Source of the DNA: Hippea maritima DSM 10411
GTDB lineage: Bacteria; Campylobacterota_A; Desulfurellia; Desulfurellales; Hippeaceae
Length of the DNA: 64,000 bases
Assembly (NCBI RefSeq): GCF_000194135.1
Contig: NC_015318.1
Coordinates: forward strand, 1,254,501-1,318,500
Direction: 5' to 3'
The notes beneath the pieces were generated by a model that searched no databases, had not been told where the DNA came from, and saw only the letters and a list, made by a program, of their open reading frames with translations. A program made the position numbers and the translations under genes. Shown piece after piece: positions 43,943 through 56,536 of the stretch (the stretch's first letter is position 1; each line of letters begins with the position of its first letter).

Positions 43943-45532
43943 ATGGGGAATGTATCGGTTAGAAAAATGATTGTTGCATTTTTTGCCCTAATTGTTCTTG
44001 GTTTAATAGTAGGATTTTATGCCACCGTATCATCAAGCAAAAGTGTTAAACACAGAACCAAAGTTATATATACAAGAGATTTGAACCAAGTTAGCCTATA
44101 CAACCAAATCAGGAAAAACTATTCAAAAGGAGAAAAATACCTGCTTAAAGCTTACTTTTTAAAAGACAAAAATATGCTTAATTTAGCCAAAAAGTATTTT
44201 GAGAAAGTGGATATGCTTATAGATAAAAACATAAATAAAACCAATATAAGCCAAACAGAGAAACAGAAATTAATGACACTGAAGTCATCAATAGACAATC
44301 AATTAAGGGTTGCCCTAAATCAAATGAATCTCAATTCAAATAATATAAACGACTTCCAAAAGTTTGACAAACTAACGCAATCCATAGATGAACAGATAGA
44401 TTCAATTTTAGATAACAGGATTGGTTTAATTAGAGCTTTAATTATAGATATTTACAAGGGTTTAGACAATCATAACAAACTAATGTTTACAATATATGCC
44501 ATCATCGCAGCAATAATAGTGCTGGGCTTTTTAGCCTTTATGAAATACCTAATAAAGCCACTAAGTGGCGTTGGTGAGGTGCTTGATAGAATTGGTAGCG
44601 GTGATTTAAGTGTGAGATTTAAAATATACACGAACAATGAGATAGGTAAACTCAAAAGAAATATTAACTCAATGGTTGAAAACCTGCAAAAGATGGTAAA
44701 CGAAACAAAAACTGCATCTGATAATATGCTAAAGGGCTCATCTAACCTTTCATCAACATCTGTTCAAATATCTGCTGCAAATGAAGAAACCTCAAGGGGT
44801 ATGGGAGAGATAGAAAACGCAATAAAAGATGCAACAAAGGCTATTGAAAGCATAGCAGAGTCCACAGAGAACATAACATCCTTAGCCGAGGGAATAGCAG
44901 AAATAAATCAAGAGTTAATTAAGGATATGGAAGAAAAGCTAAGAATGATGGGAATAAATGCCGAATTAGCAGAAAAAACAACAAAGCAAATTAATGTTGT
45001 AGGTGAATCATCAAAAGAGATAGGCAAGATCGTTGATGTAATTAGCGACATAGCAGACTAGACAAATCTATTGGCTTTGAATGCTGCTATTGAGGCAGCT
45101 CGCGCAGGGGATGCTGGTCGTGGTTTTGCCGTTGTTGCCGATGAGGTAAGGAAATTAGCAGAGAAGACTCAGCGCTCAACAGAAGAAATCAGAATAACAA
45201 TCGCAAGGATGCAACACGATGTAGAGAAAGCTATAGAACAAACGATTAAAACAAAGGAGAGCATACTGTCAGAGGCTGAATCTATAGAGAAAAACAGAGA
45301 GCATGTAAATGAAGTTGTTGAAAGAACAAATAGAACCATAGATGAAATTCACTCAACAAGTGCAGCAACAGAAGAAATATCTGCAACAATGACAGAAATA
45401 GATTCTCAAATAAGCGAAATCACAGAGGCAATAAAAGAGAATGCAAAGGCAGCAGAGTCTATAGCTGCTTTGTCTGTAGAATTAAAAGACGCAGCACAAA
45501 ATGTTTCAGATTTGTTGAGTAAGTTTAAGTAA
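43943..45532 (+). pseudogene. Methyl-accepting chemotaxis protein interrupted by one amber codon
   Basis: AGGAGG and ATG open a canonical receptor: first membrane helix (MIVAFFALIVLGLIVGFYATV), helical periplasmic domain, second helix near residue 185, HAMP (IKPLSGVGEVLDRIGSGDLSVRF) and signalling domain. Codon 373 (45059-45061) is TAG exactly where the near-invariant glutamine of [21 protein letters not shown] belongs; the same frame continues to 45532. A CAG-to-TAG change explains it. Full length would be 529 residues. Translation would otherwise end before the CheA/CheW hairpin tip. The TTG at 45071 is not a credible restart. Confidence 0.88.
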
Positions 45533-48212: not shown

Positions 48213-48241
48213 TTGACAAAAAAATAACCCTTTGATATAAA
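48213..48241 (+). promoter_or_regulatory. Strong sigma-70 promoter of the hydrogenase-related operon
   Basis: TTGACA, 17 bases, TATAAA. A start near 48248 places the whole riboswitch-like structure in a leader of about 86 bases. Confidence 0.75.
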
Positions 48242-48244
48242 ACA

Positions 48245-48310
48245 GGTGCAGCTTAAAGGCGGTGGAGTTCGCCTTAAACTGCCCTCTCTCTTTGGGCCAA
48301 TAACTCCTGC
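48245..48310 (+). ncRNA. Fluoride (crcB-motif) riboswitch, variant
   Basis: The architecture of the fluoride aptamer is complete. P1 is GGCG (48258-48261) with CGCC (48270-48273); an eight-base loop follows the GGCG; then UUAAAC, P2 GCCC/GGGC (48281-48284 with 48294-48297), then CAAUAACUCCUGC. The loop bases GGAGU (48264-48268) pair with ACUCC (48303-48307) as the expected pseudoknot. Compared with the consensus I remember (GGCGAUGG loop, UGAUGA or UAAUGA joining, CCUAC end), three usually fixed purines differ: A to G at 48262, G to A at 48302, A to G at 48309. The linchpin A48300 and U48308 are kept. The ribosome site GAGGTGG follows at 48324. Confidence 0.75.
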
Positions 48311-48333
48311 AAAAACTATAGTTGAGGTGGTTT

Positions 48334-49284
48334 ATGTTGTGGGTTTATAGTGTTATGCAATTGCTCTTTGTGGTTATCTTTGCACCCTTAATTGCTGGCA
48401 TTTTCAACAAGCTCGTTGAGGTTTACCAATCCAAAGAAGGTCCTCCAATCTTGCAACCCTATTACGACCTTGCCAAACTATTCAAAAAACAAAGCGTAAT
48501 CCCACAGGTCGCATCGGATCTTTTTCAGCTTGTTCCCTACATAACATTCTCCATGTATCTATTCCTAACATTAGTCTTGCCTATCATCACAGGTTTTCCC
48601 CTAACATTTGGCCCAACAGTTGACTTTATTGGCGGCGGACTGATATTCGCAGCCATAGCAACGCTAAAGAAACTCGCTGCCCTGGATAGCAGAAATAACT
48701 ATTCACATATGGGCGTCTCAAGAACTTCAAGCATCGGCGCACTATCAGAGCCTATAATCGTTCTTATTTTTATCACATTTGGCGCTATATCCCACACAAA
48801 CAATCCCTATGTAGTCAATAACATATTGCAAACATCAACCCATTGGTATATCTCCCTTGTTCACTGGTTTGTTGTATTTGCCTTTTTCATGGTACTTTTA
48901 GTTGAAACGGGTAAACTGCCTATAGAATCGCATACAAACAACGAATTCGGTATGATAGACCAGGCCATAGAGATGGAGTATTCATCTAAGGAGTTAGCAT
49001 TTATGAGGTGGGGCGGCTATATAAAACAGTTTCTCCTGATGAGTGTGTTTTTAAATGATTTCCTACTTCCCTTCTTCTTGCCGATGAAACCCAATTTTCT
49101 GAATATCTGTATTTACAGTTTAATCCACCTAATAAAACTAACCGTTCTTGTGTTTGTTATTGCAACCATTCAATCTACCATATCCAAATACAAACTGTTC
49201 AAAAATTTTGAATATATTGCTATAGCCTTCTCCTTTGCTTTACTTGCCATACTGGTCTTTTACACAACCGGAGGTGTTTTATGA
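48334..49284 (+). CDS. Hydrogenase-related complex, NuoH/HyfC-like membrane subunit
   Basis: 316 residues, about eight membrane helices. Family signatures are EGPPILQPYYDLAKLFKK (residues about 33-50) and ETGKLPIESHTNNEFGMIDQAIEMEYS, the charged loop that in complex I and Hyf lies at the quinone or Fe-S interface. It couples the soluble arm to the ion-pumping arm. ATG at 48334 chosen because GAGGTGG lies directly before it; the TTG at 48322 would overlap that site. First gene of a six-gene operon. Confidence 0.9.
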   Translation: MLWVYSVMQLLFVVIFAPLIAGIFNKLVEVYQSKEGPPILQPYYDLAKLFKKQSVIPQVASDLFQLVPYITFSMYLFLTLVLPIITGFPLTFGPTVDFIGGGLIFAAIATLKKLAALDSRNNYSHMGVSRTSSIGALSEPIIVLIFITFGAISHTNNPYVVNNILQTSTHWYISLVHWFVVFAFFMVLLVETGKLPIESHTNNEFGMIDQAIEMEYSSKELAFMRWGGYIKQFLLMSVFLNDFLLPFFLPMKPNFLNICIYSLIHLIKLTVLVFVIATIQSTISKYKLFKNFEYIAIAFSFALLAILVFYTTGGVL

Positions 49285-49916
49285 AGGATGCTTACATAGT
49301 TGTAGGTTTTCTGCAAATAATACTCATACTATTTATGCAGTGGCAAATATATCTAAAAAAGATAATCTTAACATTTGCCATATCATCAATTGCCATAGCA
49401 GGATTTTTGTTTGTAAGTTTTCAAACAACGCAAGAACTGTCGTTGTTGGTTTTGGTTCTGCTTACTCTCTTTATAAGAGCCATATTCATACCCTCATACA
49501 TCTTGAAAAAACTAAAACTGCCCCATAAAGAAAGAGAGGTAAAACACACAATACCCACAAGCCTTTCCATAATCATCTCTATACTACTGGTTGTATTTTC
49601 TCACACAATATACAAAACAACACTGTTCAACAGCATAGACATACAAGCCGGTTTTATACCTATAGCTATAATAATTCAGGGCATGTTCCTAATTGTATCG
49701 CGCAACAATGCATTCGTTCAGCTTATAGGCTATATGGTTATAGAAAACGGATTGTTCCTGTTTGGAGGATATATGTTTCCAGATTTACCATTCGTTGTGG
49801 AAGGGGGCATACTCCTAGACCTCATAGGTGTTGTTATGGTATCTGCAATTATAATGAAACTAAGGGAAGAATCTGTTCCTGATGTAATAGATGAATTTGA
49901 AGAGTTTAGGGGGTAG
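49281..49916 (+). CDS. Hydrogenase-related complex, HyfE-like membrane subunit
   Basis: 211 residues with about six membrane helices; the second half (IQGMFLIVSRNNAFVQLIGYMVIENGLFLFGGYM) resembles the NuoK-like part of HyfE, including the buried Glu in VIENG. It forms the short hydrophobic link between the HyfC- and HyfF/B-type subunits. Overlaps neighbours by four bases upstream and lies three bases before the next gene. Confidence 0.82.
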   Translation: MKDAYIVVGFLQIILILFMQWQIYLKKIILTFAISSIAIAGFLFVSFQTTQELSLLVLVLLTLFIRAIFIPSYILKKLKLPHKEREVKHTIPTSLSIIISILLVVFSHTIYKTTLFNSIDIQAGFIPIAIIIQGMFLIVSRNNAFVQLIGYMVIENGLFLFGGYMFPDLPFVVEGGILLDLIGVVMVSAIIMKLREESVPDVIDEFEEFRG

Positions 49917-49919
49917 AAA

Positions 49920-51296
49920 ATGTTTTATTATTTACCAGTAGGGTTTAGCTTGATAGCTTCCCTGCTTTGCATAATAGAAAGAGAGAATCTGGCTGCCCTA
50001 GCCTCTATTATAGCAGCCGGTTTGAGCGTGGCTACCTCATTCTACATATTAAGCCTTCCTACGATAACCTCCAACCTTCTTTTAATAGATGGCACATCAA
50101 AGATAATGCTCATAATTGTATCGATAATCTATCTGACAAGTGTACTGTTTTCTTTAACATATCTCAAACATGTTCAAAAACCGCTGCTTAGAAGAAACCT
50201 TTACTATCTATTCCTAAACCTGTTTGCCTCAAGCATGCTCTTTAGTGTAATACTTAACAATTTGGGGCTTATCTGGGTCGGCATAGAGGCAACAACAATA
50301 ACAAGTACCCTGCTTGTTGCAATAGATAACGACGAAGCTGCCATTGAATCGTCATGGAGATACATAATAATCGTATCGGCTGGTCTTATCATATCCCTTG
50401 TGGGCGTCGTATTCATTTACGCATCGACTCACACGCTCATATTAAGTCAGATAAAACAACTAACACTGCCAAACAAAAGATTGCTCATGCTGGGTGGGGC
50501 ATTGGCTATAGTTGGCTTTGCAACAAAAGCTGGAATCTTTCCCATGCATAGTTGGCTTGCTGATGTGCATGGAAGGGCTATAGCACCTATCAGTGCTATA
50601 TTTTCGGCTGTTTTATTACCTGTTGCTCTATTTGGTCTGTTTAGGGTACTTGAAGTTATACCGGCTGTTAAACTCCATACATTTGCATTTATACTTGGAT
50701 TTTTAAGTGTCGCCTTTGCATCAATATTCCTCATAAACCAAAAATTTTACAAAAGGATGTTTGCATATTCCTCAATCGAAAACATGGGTATGATACTTAT
50801 AGGTTTATCTTTAAATACAAAATATTCATTATTGGGGGCGTTTATACTGCTTATGGCTCATGCTTTTGCTAAATCATCGGCATTCTATACAACGGGAAAC
50901 ATATTGGCAGTGTTCAATTCAAGAAAAATCAGCGATATAGAGGGCCTAACAAAAACGATGCCAACTGCAGGATATAACTTGGTATTGTCCACACTGGCTG
51001 TGAGTTCGGCGCCCCCCTTTGGCACATTTTTAGGTGAAGTATTGATAATCTACTCTCTATATTCAATAAAAGGGTTAATGCTGACGCTACTATTAGCTAT
51101 TTTTCTTTTACTTGACTTTTTGGCACTAAACACCAAGGTAGCCAAAATGGCATTTTCAAAAACCCAACAAACAAGGATAAAGACTGAATCATCTATGAGT
51201 TTAGTTATACCTGTTTTAAACACAATCTTGGCATTCTTGGTCATATTTGCTACAGGTTTTGTTGAAAAACTCATAATTACGGGGATGATAAAATGA
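49920..51296 (+). CDS. Hydrogenase-related complex, HyfF-like antiporter subunit
   Basis: 458 residues of the Mrp/NuoN/NuoM family. The proton-path residues are in place: Glu123 in WVGIEATTITS and Lys203 in GFATKAGIFPMHSWLADVH, and the half-channel segment KRMFAYSSIENMGMI. It should translocate protons or sodium if driven. No long lateral helix is present, as in HyfF rather than NuoL. Confidence 0.9.
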   Translation: MFYYLPVGFSLIASLLCIIERENLAALASIIAAGLSVATSFYILSLPTITSNLLLIDGTSKIMLIIVSIIYLTSVLFSLTYLKHVQKPLLRRNLYYLFLNLFASSMLFSVILNNLGLIWVGIEATTITSTLLVAIDNDEAAIESSWRYIIIVSAGLIISLVGVVFIYASTHTLILSQIKQLTLPNKRLLMLGGALAIVGFATKAGIFPMHSWLADVHGRAIAPISAIFSAVLLPVALFGLFRVLEVIPAVKLHTFAFILGFLSVAFASIFLINQKFYKRMFAYSSIENMGMILIGLSLNTKYSLLGAFILLMAHAFAKSSAFYTTGNILAVFNSRKISDIEGLTKTMPTAGYNLVLSTLAVSSAPPFGTFLGEVLIIYSLYSIKGLMLTLLLAIFLLLDFLALNTKVAKMAFSKTQQTRIKTESSMSLVIPVLNTILAFLVIFATGFVEKLIITGMIK

Positions 51297-52504
51297 GGTT
51301 GTTGGGAATATTAAAAAACGATAGATTATTTGTTCAGGATAAGGACAAACTCTTTGTAAGAAACCTCAACCAGTGCAGCTCAACATTTGAAAATTACGAT
51401 TTAATAAAAAATCGGGATATATCAATAGGAAACGGCAAAACTCAAGGCAAAGGTGTTTTTAACTTCAGATATGGTCCTGTATCATCAGGTGTAGGAGAAG
51501 CCGGAATCTTTAATCTTTATACATACGGAGAAAGAATCCTTTCTGTCGAGGTTGATCCGATCTATAAAAAACGCAACATAGAAGCCCAAATGGTGGGAAA
51601 AACACCCTTTGAGGCCCTAAAATTGGCAGAGTCTGTATGCGGAAACTTTTCATTCTCACACTCATTGGCTTTTACAACAGCCTTAGAAAACCAAACAGGA
51701 ATAGAGTTAAACAAAACAGTTCAAAGGCTGAGAATAATAGGTCTTGAATTAGAAAGGACATACAATCACATACACCAAATAGCAAGGCTTGCAAAGGGAG
51801 CATCCCAAACCGTTTTAACATCCCATCTTGAATGGATCTTTGAGGAGCTTCTAAGAACAAACAAATTACTCTTTGGCAACAGGTTTCTAAAACACACAAA
51901 TTTCTTGGGCAGTACTACAATAAACCTCCACAACTTAGAAAAGGTAAAAAACAGAATAACCCAACTGAAAGAAAAATTTGAAGAACTATACGAACATGCC
52001 CTGCAGAGCTATAATTTTATAGACAGACTTTACGGTGTAGGAAGGTTAGAAAGAAAAAAGGCTTTAAATATAGGTCTTACAGGTCCTTCTCTTAGGGCAT
52101 GCGGCATAAATGAAGATTTAAGACAGCTCAATCGGTTATACGAAAACCTTAAAATAGCCACACGCTCAGAGGGTGATGCCTTAGCAAGAATGGAGGTAAG
52201 AGCGGAGGAATTTATAAACTCATGTGAGATAATACTATCACAGATAGAAAAGATAGACAACGAACCCCAAAAAGAGGAAATCCCTATAAACGACGGCGAT
52301 TATCTAGGTTATTCATGCTCTCCAACAGGTATCATAGCCTACTATTTAGAGATAAGAAAAGGGCTTATAGATTATGTTTATATCTCAACGCCATCAGTTT
52401 TTGGCTTTAGAGCATTCGCAGAAGCCATAACAGGATACATATTCACAGATTTTAGCTTCATCTTCGATTCGTTCGGCATAAACTTTGCAGACTGTGCAAG
52501 ATAA
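51293..52504 (+). CDS. Hydrogenase-related complex, large (HyfG/NuoD-like) subunit lacking the Ni site
   Basis: 403 residues aligning with the large subunit of group 4 hydrogenases and NuoD: GPVSSGVGEAGIFNLYTYGE, ESVCGNFSFSHSLAF, GLTGPSLRACGINEDLR. In hydrogenases the Ni-Fe centre needs CxxC near the N-terminus and DPCxxC at the end. Here the first motif is Cys116-Gly-Asn-Phe119 and the last is INFADC (Cys401), so one cysteine of each pair is gone. No hydrogenase activity is expected. This is the hallmark of 'energy-converting hydrogenase related' (Ehr) proteins. No C-terminal maturation tail is present. Confidence 0.88.
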   Translation: MRLLGILKNDRLFVQDKDKLFVRNLNQCSSTFENYDLIKNRDISIGNGKTQGKGVFNFRYGPVSSGVGEAGIFNLYTYGERILSVEVDPIYKKRNIEAQMVGKTPFEALKLAESVCGNFSFSHSLAFTTALENQTGIELNKTVQRLRIIGLELERTYNHIHQIARLAKGASQTVLTSHLEWIFEELLRTNKLLFGNRFLKHTNFLGSTTINLHNLEKVKNRITQLKEKFEELYEHALQSYNFIDRLYGVGRLERKKALNIGLTGPSLRACGINEDLRQLNRLYENLKIATRSEGDALARMEVRAEEFINSCEIILSQIEKIDNEPQKEEIPINDGDYLGYSCSPTGIIAYYLEIRKGLIDYVYISTPSVFGFRAFAEAITGYIFTDFSFIFDSFGINFADCAR

Positions 52505-52513
52505 GGAGGATGT

Positions 52514-52975
52514 ATGAAACCATGGACAATTTACGGTATAATTCAAAGAATAACAGAAAAATTTAATAAAACCAAAGAGGAGATAAAATCAATATCCCCT
52601 ATATTCAAAAAATCACTTCACATCTTTCCGATTGATGTAGCAAATGACAACAGGCTCAACTTAGAGATAGCCGCACTCCAAACACCACAATACAATATAC
52701 ATAGATTCGGCATATTCTTCTGTGATTCACCCAGGCATGCAGACCTTCTCCTTGTCTTAGGCAAATGCTCAATAAAAATGATTGAACCATTAAAAGAAAC
52801 AGTTAATCAAATGCCACAGCCGTTCGGCATTTTGGTTATAGAGGACGAAAATGATATAGGCATACCTGTAAAGGATCTAAATTTAGGCAATGTCTTAGGA
52901 TACTATGAAAAATCACTGACTGCGAATGAGTTATTAAATGTCCTGCTCAATATAATGGAGGCTGAGAATGATTGA
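52514..52975 (+). CDS. Hydrogenase-related complex, small (HyfI/NuoB-like) subunit without Fe-S ligands
   Basis: 153 residues. IAALQTPQYNIHRFGIFFCDSPRHADLLLVLG matches the core of HycG/HyfI/NuoB (RFGI, SPRHADILLVTG). The four cysteines that hold the proximal [4Fe-4S] cluster are absent: the CxxC position reads ANDNRLNLEI, the GACG position EDENDIG and the GCPP position LGYY. The only cysteines, Cys70 and Cys85, are not at ligand positions. AGGAGG precedes the ATG. It keeps the fold but cannot carry the normal cluster. Confidence 0.85.
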   Translation: MKPWTIYGIIQRITEKFNKTKEEIKSISPIFKKSLHIFPIDVANDNRLNLEIAALQTPQYNIHRFGIFFCDSPRHADLLLVLGKCSIKMIEPLKETVNQMPQPFGILVIEDENDIGIPVKDLNLGNVLGYYEKSLTANELLNVLLNIMEAEND

Positions 52976-54848
52976 GGTTATAATAGGCACATTCATAACA
53001 GGCGCCCTTCTGGGGTTTGCAAAAAAACAGTTGAGTTATACAGTAGCTGCTATAGCCTCTCTTTTAAGCTTTATTCTTGGCTTTAAAGCAACCTTTTCAA
53101 ACCTTACCATCACACACACAACCCATCTTATAGATAGCATAAATATAGGTTTTTATCTGGATAAAACATCCGGCTTGTTTCTAATGATAGCATCCATTTC
53201 ATGGTTTGCCATATCCCTATTTTCAGTAGACTTTGGAGAACGGTACAAGCAAAGGATGTCTATTTTTATAAACCTTGCAATGTTAGGCATGTTTTTATTG
53301 CTCGTATCATACGATATGTTGATGCTGCTTATTGGACTTGAGGTTATGACCATCTCATCCTATATGCTTATCGCAGAACATGGAGGTTCATACAAAGAGG
53401 CTTATGAGTTCTTAGCATTCAGTGAAATATCAACCCTATCTTTAATAATCGCTGCAGCGGCGCTATTTGCGTCAACAAAAAGCTTTGGTTTAACTGCGCA
53501 ATCACAGAGCTTACCATTTATAATTTTTGCATCCTTAGGATTCATGATAAAAATGGACATAGTGCCGTTTCATACATGGCTAAAAAGGGTATATTCAAAA
53601 GCACCCGCAAACGCCTCAGCTATACTCAGCGCCTCAATGACACTGATGGGTGTATATGGGATTATCAGAACAATACAGATAACTGGATATATGCACGGCT
53701 GGGGAATAGCGGCTTTAATTTTAGGAAGCATATCAGCCTTCTGGGGTGCCATTGGAGCAGCAGCATCCAAAGAGTTGAATGTGTTGCCGGCTTATTCAAC
53801 TATAGAAAATAACGGTATGATTTTAGCCCTTCTTGGATTATCTGCCATCGCTTACTCGTTTTCTGCAAAATCAACACTATATGAGTTTGCCTTCTTGGGA
53901 GCTATAGTAATTGCCCTATCCCATACAACAGCAAAAACACTTATGTTTCTATCCATAGGTGAGGCAAAAGAAAGGCTTCAGGAGGAAACCATAGACAGCG
54001 TAAGAGGCATATATAAAAGCGTAGGCAAAATTCCGGCTTTGGGTATATTAACATCGGGGCTTTCGTTTGGAGGCTTTCCGCTATTTTTGGGCTACATTGC
54101 AGAGTGGATGCTGCTTGAATCGGTGTTTCAGTCGTATCAATTTACAAGCATGCTTGACAGAATAACAAGCTCAGCGGCGGGCATATTGATGGCCCTTGCT
54201 ATGGGTTTTGTCTCATTTTCTATGATAAAACTTATAGGATATTCAGCACTCGGGTATCATCATAATAAAAAAGCTTTGAGTATGCCTGTATTTGCCATGC
54301 ATCTGTCCCAGCTATTGCTAACTATTCTTTTGATTGGGTTTGGAGGTTTTGCCTCTTTGTGGTTTATCTATTTAGGCTATCCACAGTTTGTTGGAGGGTT
54401 ATTGGGCGTGCCCAACGGATGGTTAATCCTAAGTGCAAAACCTATATTTGGCGTTGTATCACCCGCATTTTTGATGATTGTGATTTTAGTTTTATTCATA
54501 CTGCCCTTTACTGTTTACATAAAAACCAGAAAAACCACCAAAAGGGTTGTGTCATGGAACGGTGGATTGAAATTGGAAGAAAATGAGTATTTTACAGTCA
54601 ATGCATTCTCATTTATTCTTGAGTATGTATTGCGCTTTATCTATAACATGAAAGAGATAAAACAAAACAAAGAGGCATTTGTCGTGGTGGTTGATGTATT
54701 CGATTTAGTGTATCAAAAACTTACAAAACTCACCAAGAAAACAACCTATATAGTAAGCCATGCAATTATGAATGGAAAAATCTCTTTTTATGTATTTTAC
54801 ATACTTGCTATGTTTATAATAACAATAGTTGTATTTAGCATAATATAA
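52968..54848 (+). CDS. Hydrogenase-related complex, HyfB-like antiporter subunit
   Basis: 626 residues, Mrp/NuoL-like. Glu125 in LIGLEVMTISSYML and Lys195 in MIKMDIVPFHTWLKRVYSKAPANASA are the conserved ion-path residues; NNGMI and SHTTAKTLMFLSIG follow. A C-terminal soluble segment (KEIKQNKEAFVVVVDVF) precedes a last membrane helix, as in HyfB. Eight-base overlap with the small subunit. Last gene; a terminator follows. Confidence 0.9.
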   Translation: MIEVIIGTFITGALLGFAKKQLSYTVAAIASLLSFILGFKATFSNLTITHTTHLIDSINIGFYLDKTSGLFLMIASISWFAISLFSVDFGERYKQRMSIFINLAMLGMFLLLVSYDMLMLLIGLEVMTISSYMLIAEHGGSYKEAYEFLAFSEISTLSLIIAAAALFASTKSFGLTAQSQSLPFIIFASLGFMIKMDIVPFHTWLKRVYSKAPANASAILSASMTLMGVYGIIRTIQITGYMHGWGIAALILGSISAFWGAIGAAASKELNVLPAYSTIENNGMILALLGLSAIAYSFSAKSTLYEFAFLGAIVIALSHTTAKTLMFLSIGEAKERLQEETIDSVRGIYKSVGKIPALGILTSGLSFGGFPLFLGYIAEWMLLESVFQSYQFTSMLDRITSSAAGILMALAMGFVSFSMIKLIGYSALGYHHNKKALSMPVFAMHLSQLLLTILLIGFGGFASLWFIYLGYPQFVGGLLGVPNGWLILSAKPIFGVVSPAFLMIVILVLFILPFTVYIKTRKTTKRVVSWNGGLKLEENEYFTVNAFSFILEYVLRFIYNMKEIKQNKEAFVVVVDVFDLVYQKLTKLTKKTTYIVSHAIMNGKISFYVFYILAMFIITIVVFSII

Positions 54849-55061: not shown

Positions 55062-55805
55062 ATGATGCGTTATTCTGTGTTGGTGTTTATGTTTATCTTG
55101 TTTTTCTCCTTTGAGTGTCATTCTTATACGCTTTATTGGTTGACAGGTGCAGGCATAAAAAGGCCGGCACAAATGATAGCAAAGGCATATAACGAAACAC
55201 ACAAAGACAAAGTGGTAATTATAGCTGGCGGCTCTGGTCAGGTTTTAAACCAAATAATACAATCAAAAAGGGGTGATATATATACCCTTGTGGATGTTGA
55301 TTTTTTAAACAGGGCAAAGCGGTTCAACGCTATATCAACATACAAAAAGATTCTCAAATTAACACCTATATTTCTTTTATCCAGAATCGGAGAGAAAAAG
55401 ATAGGGAATTTTTATGACCTTTCAAAGGTCGGTACAAAAATAGCAGGTGGAAATCCAAAGGCTATGTGTCTTGGTAAAACATTTGAGCAGATAATGTCAA
55501 AGCTTCCATCAGAGTTGGCCAATAAAATACAAAAGAATATCAGAATTAGATGCCTAAATGTATTTCAAATAGTTGGATATGTAAAAGAAGGAGTGGTGGA
55601 TGCAGGTATCGTCTTAGATAAAGCTCTAATAAAAAGCACACACCTAAAATACATAACCATACCACAAAAATACAATGTCAACAGATACGGCTATGTAGCT
55701 TTGGTTTCATATTCAAAACACAAAGAGGCAGCAAAAGAGCTATACAATTTTATACTAACACACCTGTATGTTTACAAAAACTATGGATTTGAGGTGTTAA
55801 AATGA
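55062..55805 (+). CDS. Molybdate/tungstate-type periplasmic binding protein, copy 1
   Basis: 247 residues. Signal peptide (RYSVLVFMFILFFSFECHS), then LYWLTGAGIKRPAQMIAKAYNE, GGSGQVLNQI, GGNPKAMCLGKTFEQI and VKEGVVDAGIVLDKAL, the ModA/SBP_bac_11 fold pattern: a new-substrate SGQ loop and the DAGIV hinge. The riboswitch upstream supports molybdate or tungstate. No permease or ATPase gene adjoins. AGGAGG precedes the ATG. Confidence 0.75.
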   Translation: MMRYSVLVFMFILFFSFECHSYTLYWLTGAGIKRPAQMIAKAYNETHKDKVVIIAGGSGQVLNQIIQSKRGDIYTLVDVDFLNRAKRFNAISTYKKILKLTPIFLLSRIGEKKIGNFYDLSKVGTKIAGGNPKAMCLGKTFEQIMSKLPSELANKIQKNIRIRCLNVFQIVGYVKEGVVDAGIVLDKALIKSTHLKYITIPQKYNVNRYGYVALVSYSKHKEAAKELYNFILTHLYVYKNYGFEVLK

Positions 55806-56536
55806 AAAGGTTATTTGTCGTTTTTACAATTGCCCTATTTACAAAAACCGCTTTTTGCTATCAACTGTATTGGTTCTCATCGGCAGCTATCAAAAAACCA
55901 TCCCAGAAGATAGCCGAATTATTCAACAAAACCCATAAAGATAAGGTTGTTTTGATAAACGGTGGAACAGGCCAGGTATTGCAACAGATGATTCTATCAA
56001 AAAAGGGCGATATATACACATGCATCGACCCTAAGTTTTTCAAAATTGCTCAAGAAAAAGGCCTGATTTTGGAATATACGAGTTTTATCAAACTAACACC
56101 CGTTATAGGACTATCACAAAAAGGCCAAAACAAAATAAAGACCTTTAACGATATATTCAAAAACGGTATAACAATAGCAGCAGGCAATCCTAAAACCATG
56201 GCGCTGGGCAAAACATACATGCATATACTAAATAAACTCTCAAGCAGAATGGCAACAAAACTCAAAAACAATGTAAAAGTAAAGGCGATAAACATATCCC
56301 AGATTATAAACTATCTAAAACAAGATACAGTGGATGCTGGTCTTGTGTTTAAATCAACAGCAAAGATAAACGGGTTTGATTATGTGGAAATACCCAAAGA
56401 GTTCAATCAGATAAAGAAAGGATACATAGCCAAGATATCCTTCAGCAAAAACAAAAAAGCACAGGATGATCTGTATCGATTTATACTAAACCACCCCAAC
56501 ATATACACCCAATTTGGCTTTGATGTTATACATTAA
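55802..56536 (+). CDS. Molybdate/tungstate-type periplasmic binding protein, copy 2
   Basis: 244 residues, clear tandem duplicate of the previous protein: LYWFSSAAIKKPSQKIAELFN, GGTGQVLQQM, AGNPKTMALGKTYMHIL, LKQDTVDAGLVF. Signal peptide ends near AFC. Overlaps copy 1 by four bases; its stop overlaps that of cobU, which converges. The copies diverge widely, so the duplication is old or the ligands differ. Confidence 0.75.
   Translation: MKRLFVVFTIALFTKTAFCYQLYWFSSAAIKKPSQKIAELFNKTHKDKVVLINGGTGQVLQQMILSKKGDIYTCIDPKFFKIAQEKGLILEYTSFIKLTPVIGLSQKGQNKIKTFNDIFKNGITIAAGNPKTMALGKTYMHILNKLSSRMATKLKNNVKVKAINISQIINYLKQDTVDAGLVFKSTAKINGFDYVEIPKEFNQIKKGYIAKISFSKNKKAQDDLYRFILNHPNIYTQFGFDVIH

Follow-up and report, generated by a model that had tools for sequence, protein, structure and literature searches.

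Genetic organization of the locus

The analysed window, a 64,000-nucleotide stretch of the Hippea maritima DSM 10411 genome (NC_015318.1, positions 1,254,501 to 1,318,500), contains a fluoride riboswitch of Rfam family RF01734 (crcB motif) at 48249-48316 (+), followed on the same strand by six hydrogenase-4-like genes (48334-54848) of a type that is annotated as formate hydrogenlyase/hydrogenase 4. This agrees with the original prediction, which had placed such a riboswitch ahead of a hydrogenase-related complex. The aptamer is genuine: scoring with the Rfam covariance model, a check proposed with that prediction, gave 47 bits (gathering score 34), with E-values of 8.4e-12 in an 800-base stretch and 6.7e-10 in the whole window (cmscan). 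All elements of the predicted layout are present as placed, namely P1 (GGCG/CGCC, 48258-48261 with 48270-48273), the UUAAAC linker (48274-48279), P3 (GCCC/GGGC, 48281-48284 with 48294-48297), a 13-base tail (48298-48310) and a five-pair pseudoknot between GGAGU (48264-48268) and ACUCC. The 3' pseudoknot strand, which with U48 of the linchpin pair A40-U48 (48300-48308; Thermotoga petrophila numbering) spans 48303-48308, is anti-Shine-Dalgarno-like. Upstream on the same strand, a promoter-like TTGACA (48213-48218) is separated by 17 bases from TATAAA (48236-48241), and a transcript from these elements, which were read from the sequence, would begin at about 48248, right at the aptamer. The pair was not among the matches of a consensus scan that accepts the second hexamer only if it ends in T. 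The H. maritima genome has two fluoride riboswitches, the second of which (37.1 bits) precedes a dynamin-family GTPase gene.

The operon encodes, all on the forward strand, a NuoH/HyfC-like membrane subunit (48334-49284, 316 aa; PF00146, E 2.4e-28), a HyfE-like membrane subunit (49281-49916, 211 aa; NF008556, E 1.8e-10, under the curated cut-off), a HyfF-like antiporter-type subunit (49920-51296, 458 aa; PF00361, E 4e-48), a HyfG/NuoD-like large subunit (51293-52504, 403 aa; PF00346, E 7.7e-25), a HyfI/NuoB-like small subunit (52514-52975, 153 aa; NuoB models, E 6.6e-12, under the cut-off) and a HyfB-like antiporter-type subunit (52968-54848, 626 aa; PF00361, E 1e-26). Among solved structures, the large subunit is closest to membrane-bound hydrogenase and formate hydrogenlyase; predicted models of the large (pLDDT 90.8) and small (pLDDT 79.9) subunits best matched 7z0s_E and 6cfw_J, respectively. 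The homology implied by the predicted "hydrogenase-related complex" was thus right, but the loss of its redox sites had gone unseen. The CxxC Ni-Fe ligand motifs, present in 13 Ech-type control large subunits, are missing in the Hippea protein and in all 32 large subunits of the family, and the small subunits retain not one conserved cysteine column (32 homologues), whereas controls have CxxCxxE. Conserved residues of the antiporter-type subunits comprise E123, K203, K278, H314 and K318 (HyfF-like) and E125, K195, H202, H319 and K323 (HyfB-like), which are of the kind that carries ions in antiporter-like subunits. Profile searches of the six genes found no formate dehydrogenase or ferredoxin-like subunit.

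Downstream, a molybdenum/tungsten cofactor riboswitch (RF01055, 54890-55008 (+), 87.5 bits) sits between the operon end and two tandem genes for ModA-like solute-binding proteins (55062-55805 and 55802-56536). Upstream, a methyl-accepting chemotaxis protein gene (43943-45532 (+)) carries a single in-frame TAA inside the conserved signalling domain.

Variant bases of the aptamer

The aptamer departs from the Rfam consensus at five core positions, comprising the three substitutions named in the original prediction (48262 G, 48302 A and 48309 G; positions 6, 42 and 49), which the Rfam alignment bears out, and two that it missed (48298 C for U and 48299 A for G; positions 38 and 39). The three purines had been regarded as normally invariant, which does not hold across 35 aligned aptamers from 27 leaders of hydrogenase-like operons (several phyla) and eight dynamin-gene leaders: position 6 is G in 23 and A in 12, position 42 is A in 18 and G in 17, and position 49 is A in 22 and G in 13. 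Position 6 pairs with position 38, where the C of Hippea compensates the change at 48262; the pair is G-C in 23 aptamers, A-U in 12 and mixed in none. A pattern parse of Thermotogota aptamers that allowed mixed pairs, overlapping the set of 35 by a few Thermotogota leaders and leaving two aptamers unparsed, returned 26 A-U, 16 G-C and no mixed pairs. The exchange amounts to a double mutation of this tertiary pair made by nature, and it has a parallel in the Levitt pair of tRNA, which is G15-C48 or A15-U48. Over P1, the pseudoknot and pair 6-38, 98.9% of cells are paired, as against 35-56% with partners slid by one to three columns, and 50 cells carry two-sided changes (35 aptamers). The pseudoknot, for which a covariation check in relatives had likewise been proposed, is paired in 98.3% of cells and shows two-sided changes in three of its five pairs. 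A40 and U48 are invariant, and positions 39, 42 and 49 each take A or G, with every combination present. A second compensated pair, 39 with 49 or 42, was considered and rejected, as no covariation was seen and all combinations occur. In the T. petrophila structure, 6-38 is a reversed Watson-Crick pair (PMC11586693; probed in PMC10687018) and A40-U48 is the linchpin pair (PMC8752731); since backbone phosphates hold the Mg-F cluster (PMC11586693), the ligand need not be affected by a base change at position 42.

Leaders of the hydrogenase-like operon have the A-U form in Desulfurella and at locus L104 and the G-C form in Hippea, while among the leaders of MoxR operons those of Thermotoga-like genomes are A-U and those of Mesoaciditogales are G-C. 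We therefore rejected the G-C subtype as a hallmark of the hydrogenase-like operon alone. The Mesoaciditogales G6-C38 riboswitches (L172, L173, L175, L181, L183, L185) precede MoxR-like ATPase operons, and the genes behind the A6-U38 riboswitches of Thermotoga-like genomes are related to these. L179 and L180 have divergent pairs of fluoride riboswitches, in which one aptamer precedes the hydrogenase-like operon and the other a gene for a different product of roughly 500 aa; the two aptamers differ in 6-38 pair type.

In secondary structure, pseudoknot, A40-U48, pair 6-38 and above-cut-off score the Hippea RNA resembles the crcB motif, from whose usual members it differs by G-C instead of A-U at 6-38, by A at 39 and 42 and G at 49, and by a 3' strand that probably targets ribosome binding rather than a terminator. 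The competing GCAG/CTGC helix that had been suggested for the 48309 change can be drawn, but it lies about 3 kcal/mol above the predicted minimum and is not conserved, its 3' half reading CTAT in the sister genome G007.

Predicted expression platform

A Shine-Dalgarno-like GAGGTGG (48324-48330) and an ATG (48334-48336), read from the sequence, follow the aptamer on the forward strand. The predicted local fold of 28 of the 35 leaders pairs the ACUCCU strand, whole or in part, with bases no more than about 17 nt ahead of the start codon, usually those of the Shine-Dalgarno sequence (z-scores of about 0 to -6). For the window, the strand is predicted to pair with the first codons (48338-48345) in a hairpin at 48302-48345 (-10.6 kcal/mol, z -2.0, only moderately strong), which would thereby enclose both the Shine-Dalgarno sequence and the AUG; the counterpart of this hairpin in sister genome G007 is weak (z -0.7). 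For the window, near-optimal folds showed no direct contact between the Shine-Dalgarno sequence and the 3' pseudoknot strand, and such pairing was rejected. An intrinsic terminator was rejected too, as a scan of the leader gave none. Leaders of Desulfurella and L104 (L053, L054, L055, L104) have an aptamer-overlapping hairpin some 40-70 bases ahead of the start codon and, given that distance, may use a different expression platform.

Fluoride is presumably the ligand of the copy at 48249-48316, and what these modelled folds best suggest is fluoride-ON control of translation. Fluoride bound as a Mg-F cluster would lock the pseudoknot (48264-48268 with 48303-48307) and so keep the ACUCCU strand off the ribosome-binding region, turning translation of the operon on; without fluoride, the strand would pair downstream and hide the Shine-Dalgarno sequence and start codon.

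Phylogeny, distribution and riboswitch linkage of the operon family

Members of the operon family were found in Desulfurellales, Thermotogota, Spirochaetota and Bacteroidota. All complete homologous operons in the home phylum of Hippea share the gene order C-E-F-G-I-B, which also occurs in the operons of the other three phyla. The 32 large subunits form one clade (100/100) in a maximum-likelihood tree that also took in 35 Ehr, 13 Ech-type and 4 NuoD rows, all of which fall outside it; the deep position of the clade is unsure because of its long stem. The label Ehr for the 35 rows is our own, based on missing CxxC motifs in a tree without the reference Geobacter Ehr. Outside the home phylum the family is rare, with a score above 460 bits in one of 296 sampled genomes of Spirochaetota (the phylum of G025) and one of 393 sampled from a single Bacteroidota order, that of G032; all else in the two samples reached 212 bits or less.

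A fluoride aptamer lies upstream of all 28 complete operons with upstream DNA, 26 being recognized by score and two (L100, L102) by eye only. Sixteen home-phylum operons have it at E < 0.001 (G013 with 30.9 bits, under the curated cut-off) and five operons of other phyla above the Rfam cut-off. Five more were recovered at the expected place by model R1 (E 1e-7 to 0.04), which was built without these five leaders and had them as its five best matches in 248 kb; Rfam scores among the R1-found leaders were 32.7 bits for L093, 27.4 for L096 and only 15 for L103. None of ten related Ehr loci with different gene order had a fluoride riboswitch, two of them (L238, L243) being short contigs.

The complex can be counted as an energy-converting hydrogenase-related complex (Ehr) in the broad sense (PMC6349859, PMC10284858), since it is group 4-like with antiporter-like membrane subunits and a hydrogenase-like large subunit without Ni-Fe ligands. 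It differs from the sampled Ehr in forming a separate clade, in a large subunit of about 400 rather than 500 residues, in the order C-E-F-G-I-B, in the loss of all small-subunit cysteine ligands and in its constant association with a fluoride riboswitch, which the ten sampled Ehr loci do not have. In Bacteroidales Ehr-like operons (L209-L211, L214, L216-L218, L220, L224, L230, L232-L236) the small subunits keep only part of the Fe-S motif CxxCxxE (GDNSCEWE-type); this decay is apparently independent, and those scanned had no fluoride riboswitch. Many home-phylum genomes have a second fluoride riboswitch before a dynamin-family GTPase gene (L002 1501-1566 (-), L057, L058, L061, L062, L063, L072, L077, L079, L080), a membrane-remodelling GTPase being unusual in a fluoride regulon.

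Putative function of the fluoride-linked complex

With the aptamer, its covariation, the conserved linkage and the ligand loss established by computation, we consider it probable that a G6-C38 fluoride riboswitch acting as a translational ON switch controls a redox-independent ion antiporter against fluoride stress. Judged from its sequences, the complex has lost the Ni-Fe site and the adjoining Fe-S site and has kept ion-translocation residues; it is most likely a fluoride-induced, redox-independent ion antiporter, whose transport function we infer. The ligand loss leaves room for a cofactor of another kind. Such an antiporter would swap protons and cations and so cope with the acid brought in by HF. 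In this proposed role and in having antiporter-like subunits that conserve Glu, Lys and His it resembles the Mrp cation/proton antiporter, which, unlike the Hippea complex, is without NuoH-, NuoD- and NuoB-like subunits.

A riboswitch for a new ligand, another anion or a metal-anion complex, is suggested by the five core departures from the Rfam consensus, and the original prediction had suggested a fluoride switch at the margin of the family or a new ligand class. The score well over threshold speaks against both, as does the perfect covariation of 6-38, where neither base is ever exchanged without the other; the remaining substituted positions vary freely around an invariant A40-U48. Since this exchange is compensatory and operon types are common to both pair forms, hydrogenase-like and MoxR operons alike being split by lineage, we regard a new ligand as extremely improbable. 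If the operon encoded a functional formate hydrogenlyase or another redox complex, upregulated by fluoride to adjust metabolism, this would agree with its best solved relatives and with the published target class: Weinberg et al. 2010 (PMC2864571) counted formate hydrogen lyase genes among the targets of the crcB motif, and the enzyme figures as a metabolic response in a review from 2024 (PMC11139923). Formate hydrogen lyase is also listed for Desulfurellaceae, where only HybABC is the Ni-Fe hydrogenase common to the family (PMC5317093), and we infer that the listed enzyme is the fluoride-linked operon. The fold and homologous subunit order are indeed those of Hyc/Hyf and the group 4 membrane-bound hydrogenases, but Ni-Fe and NuoB-type Fe-S ligands occur in none of the 32 members, and the six genes include neither of the partner subunits, formate dehydrogenase or ferredoxin-like, so that we hold a working redox enzyme to be very unlikely.

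A stronger case can be made for the complex itself exporting fluoride, or driving an exporter, in place of Fluc and CLC-F. Besides the fluoride control of all 28 operons, Fluc (PF02537) was found in none of 25 genomes of the home phylum, some of them draft (10 of 14 control genomes were positive), nor in eight of the 13 other carriers of the operon. The GREGT/V signature that marks CLC-F (PMC11139923) is absent from all 34 CLC proteins of Hippea and seven relatives, each of which reads GREGP; a hidden CLC-F was rejected on this ground and because the shortest Hippea CLC is closer to ClcA than to CLC-F entries. The only other riboswitch target seen in the phylum is the dynamin-like GTPase. Against export by the complex, its subunits are akin to cation/proton antiporters and not to anion carriers, Fluc occurs alongside the operon in five Bacteroidota or unclassified carriers, and an unlinked exporter of a new kind could exist. 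Fluoride export thus appears rather unlikely, and pH or cation antiport the likelier role; Na+/H+ antiporters are the commonest fluoride-riboswitch genes after the exporters (PMC11139923). If the export reading were true, the complex would be a third kind of bacterial fluoride exporter, complex I-derived and cofactor-free, which takes the place of Fluc and CLC-F across a whole phylum and has passed for formate hydrogenlyase within fluoride regulons.

On the reading preferred here, a fluoride-induced ion antiporter, the link between the riboswitch and "formate hydrogenlyase" is already published, and the cofactor-less, fluoride-linked clade appears to be new; we found no earlier report of the redox-site loss or of a separate clade in the open-access literature. 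Since 2010 "formate hydrogenlyase" as a fluoride-riboswitch target has been explained as a metabolic shift, an explanation that this clade challenges, as its genes of this name are devoid of all known redox sites, which points to ion transport or pH homeostasis instead. These bacteria appear to sense fluoride with neither known exporter, and a phylum of this kind brings the missing tolerance mechanism within reach of direct tests.
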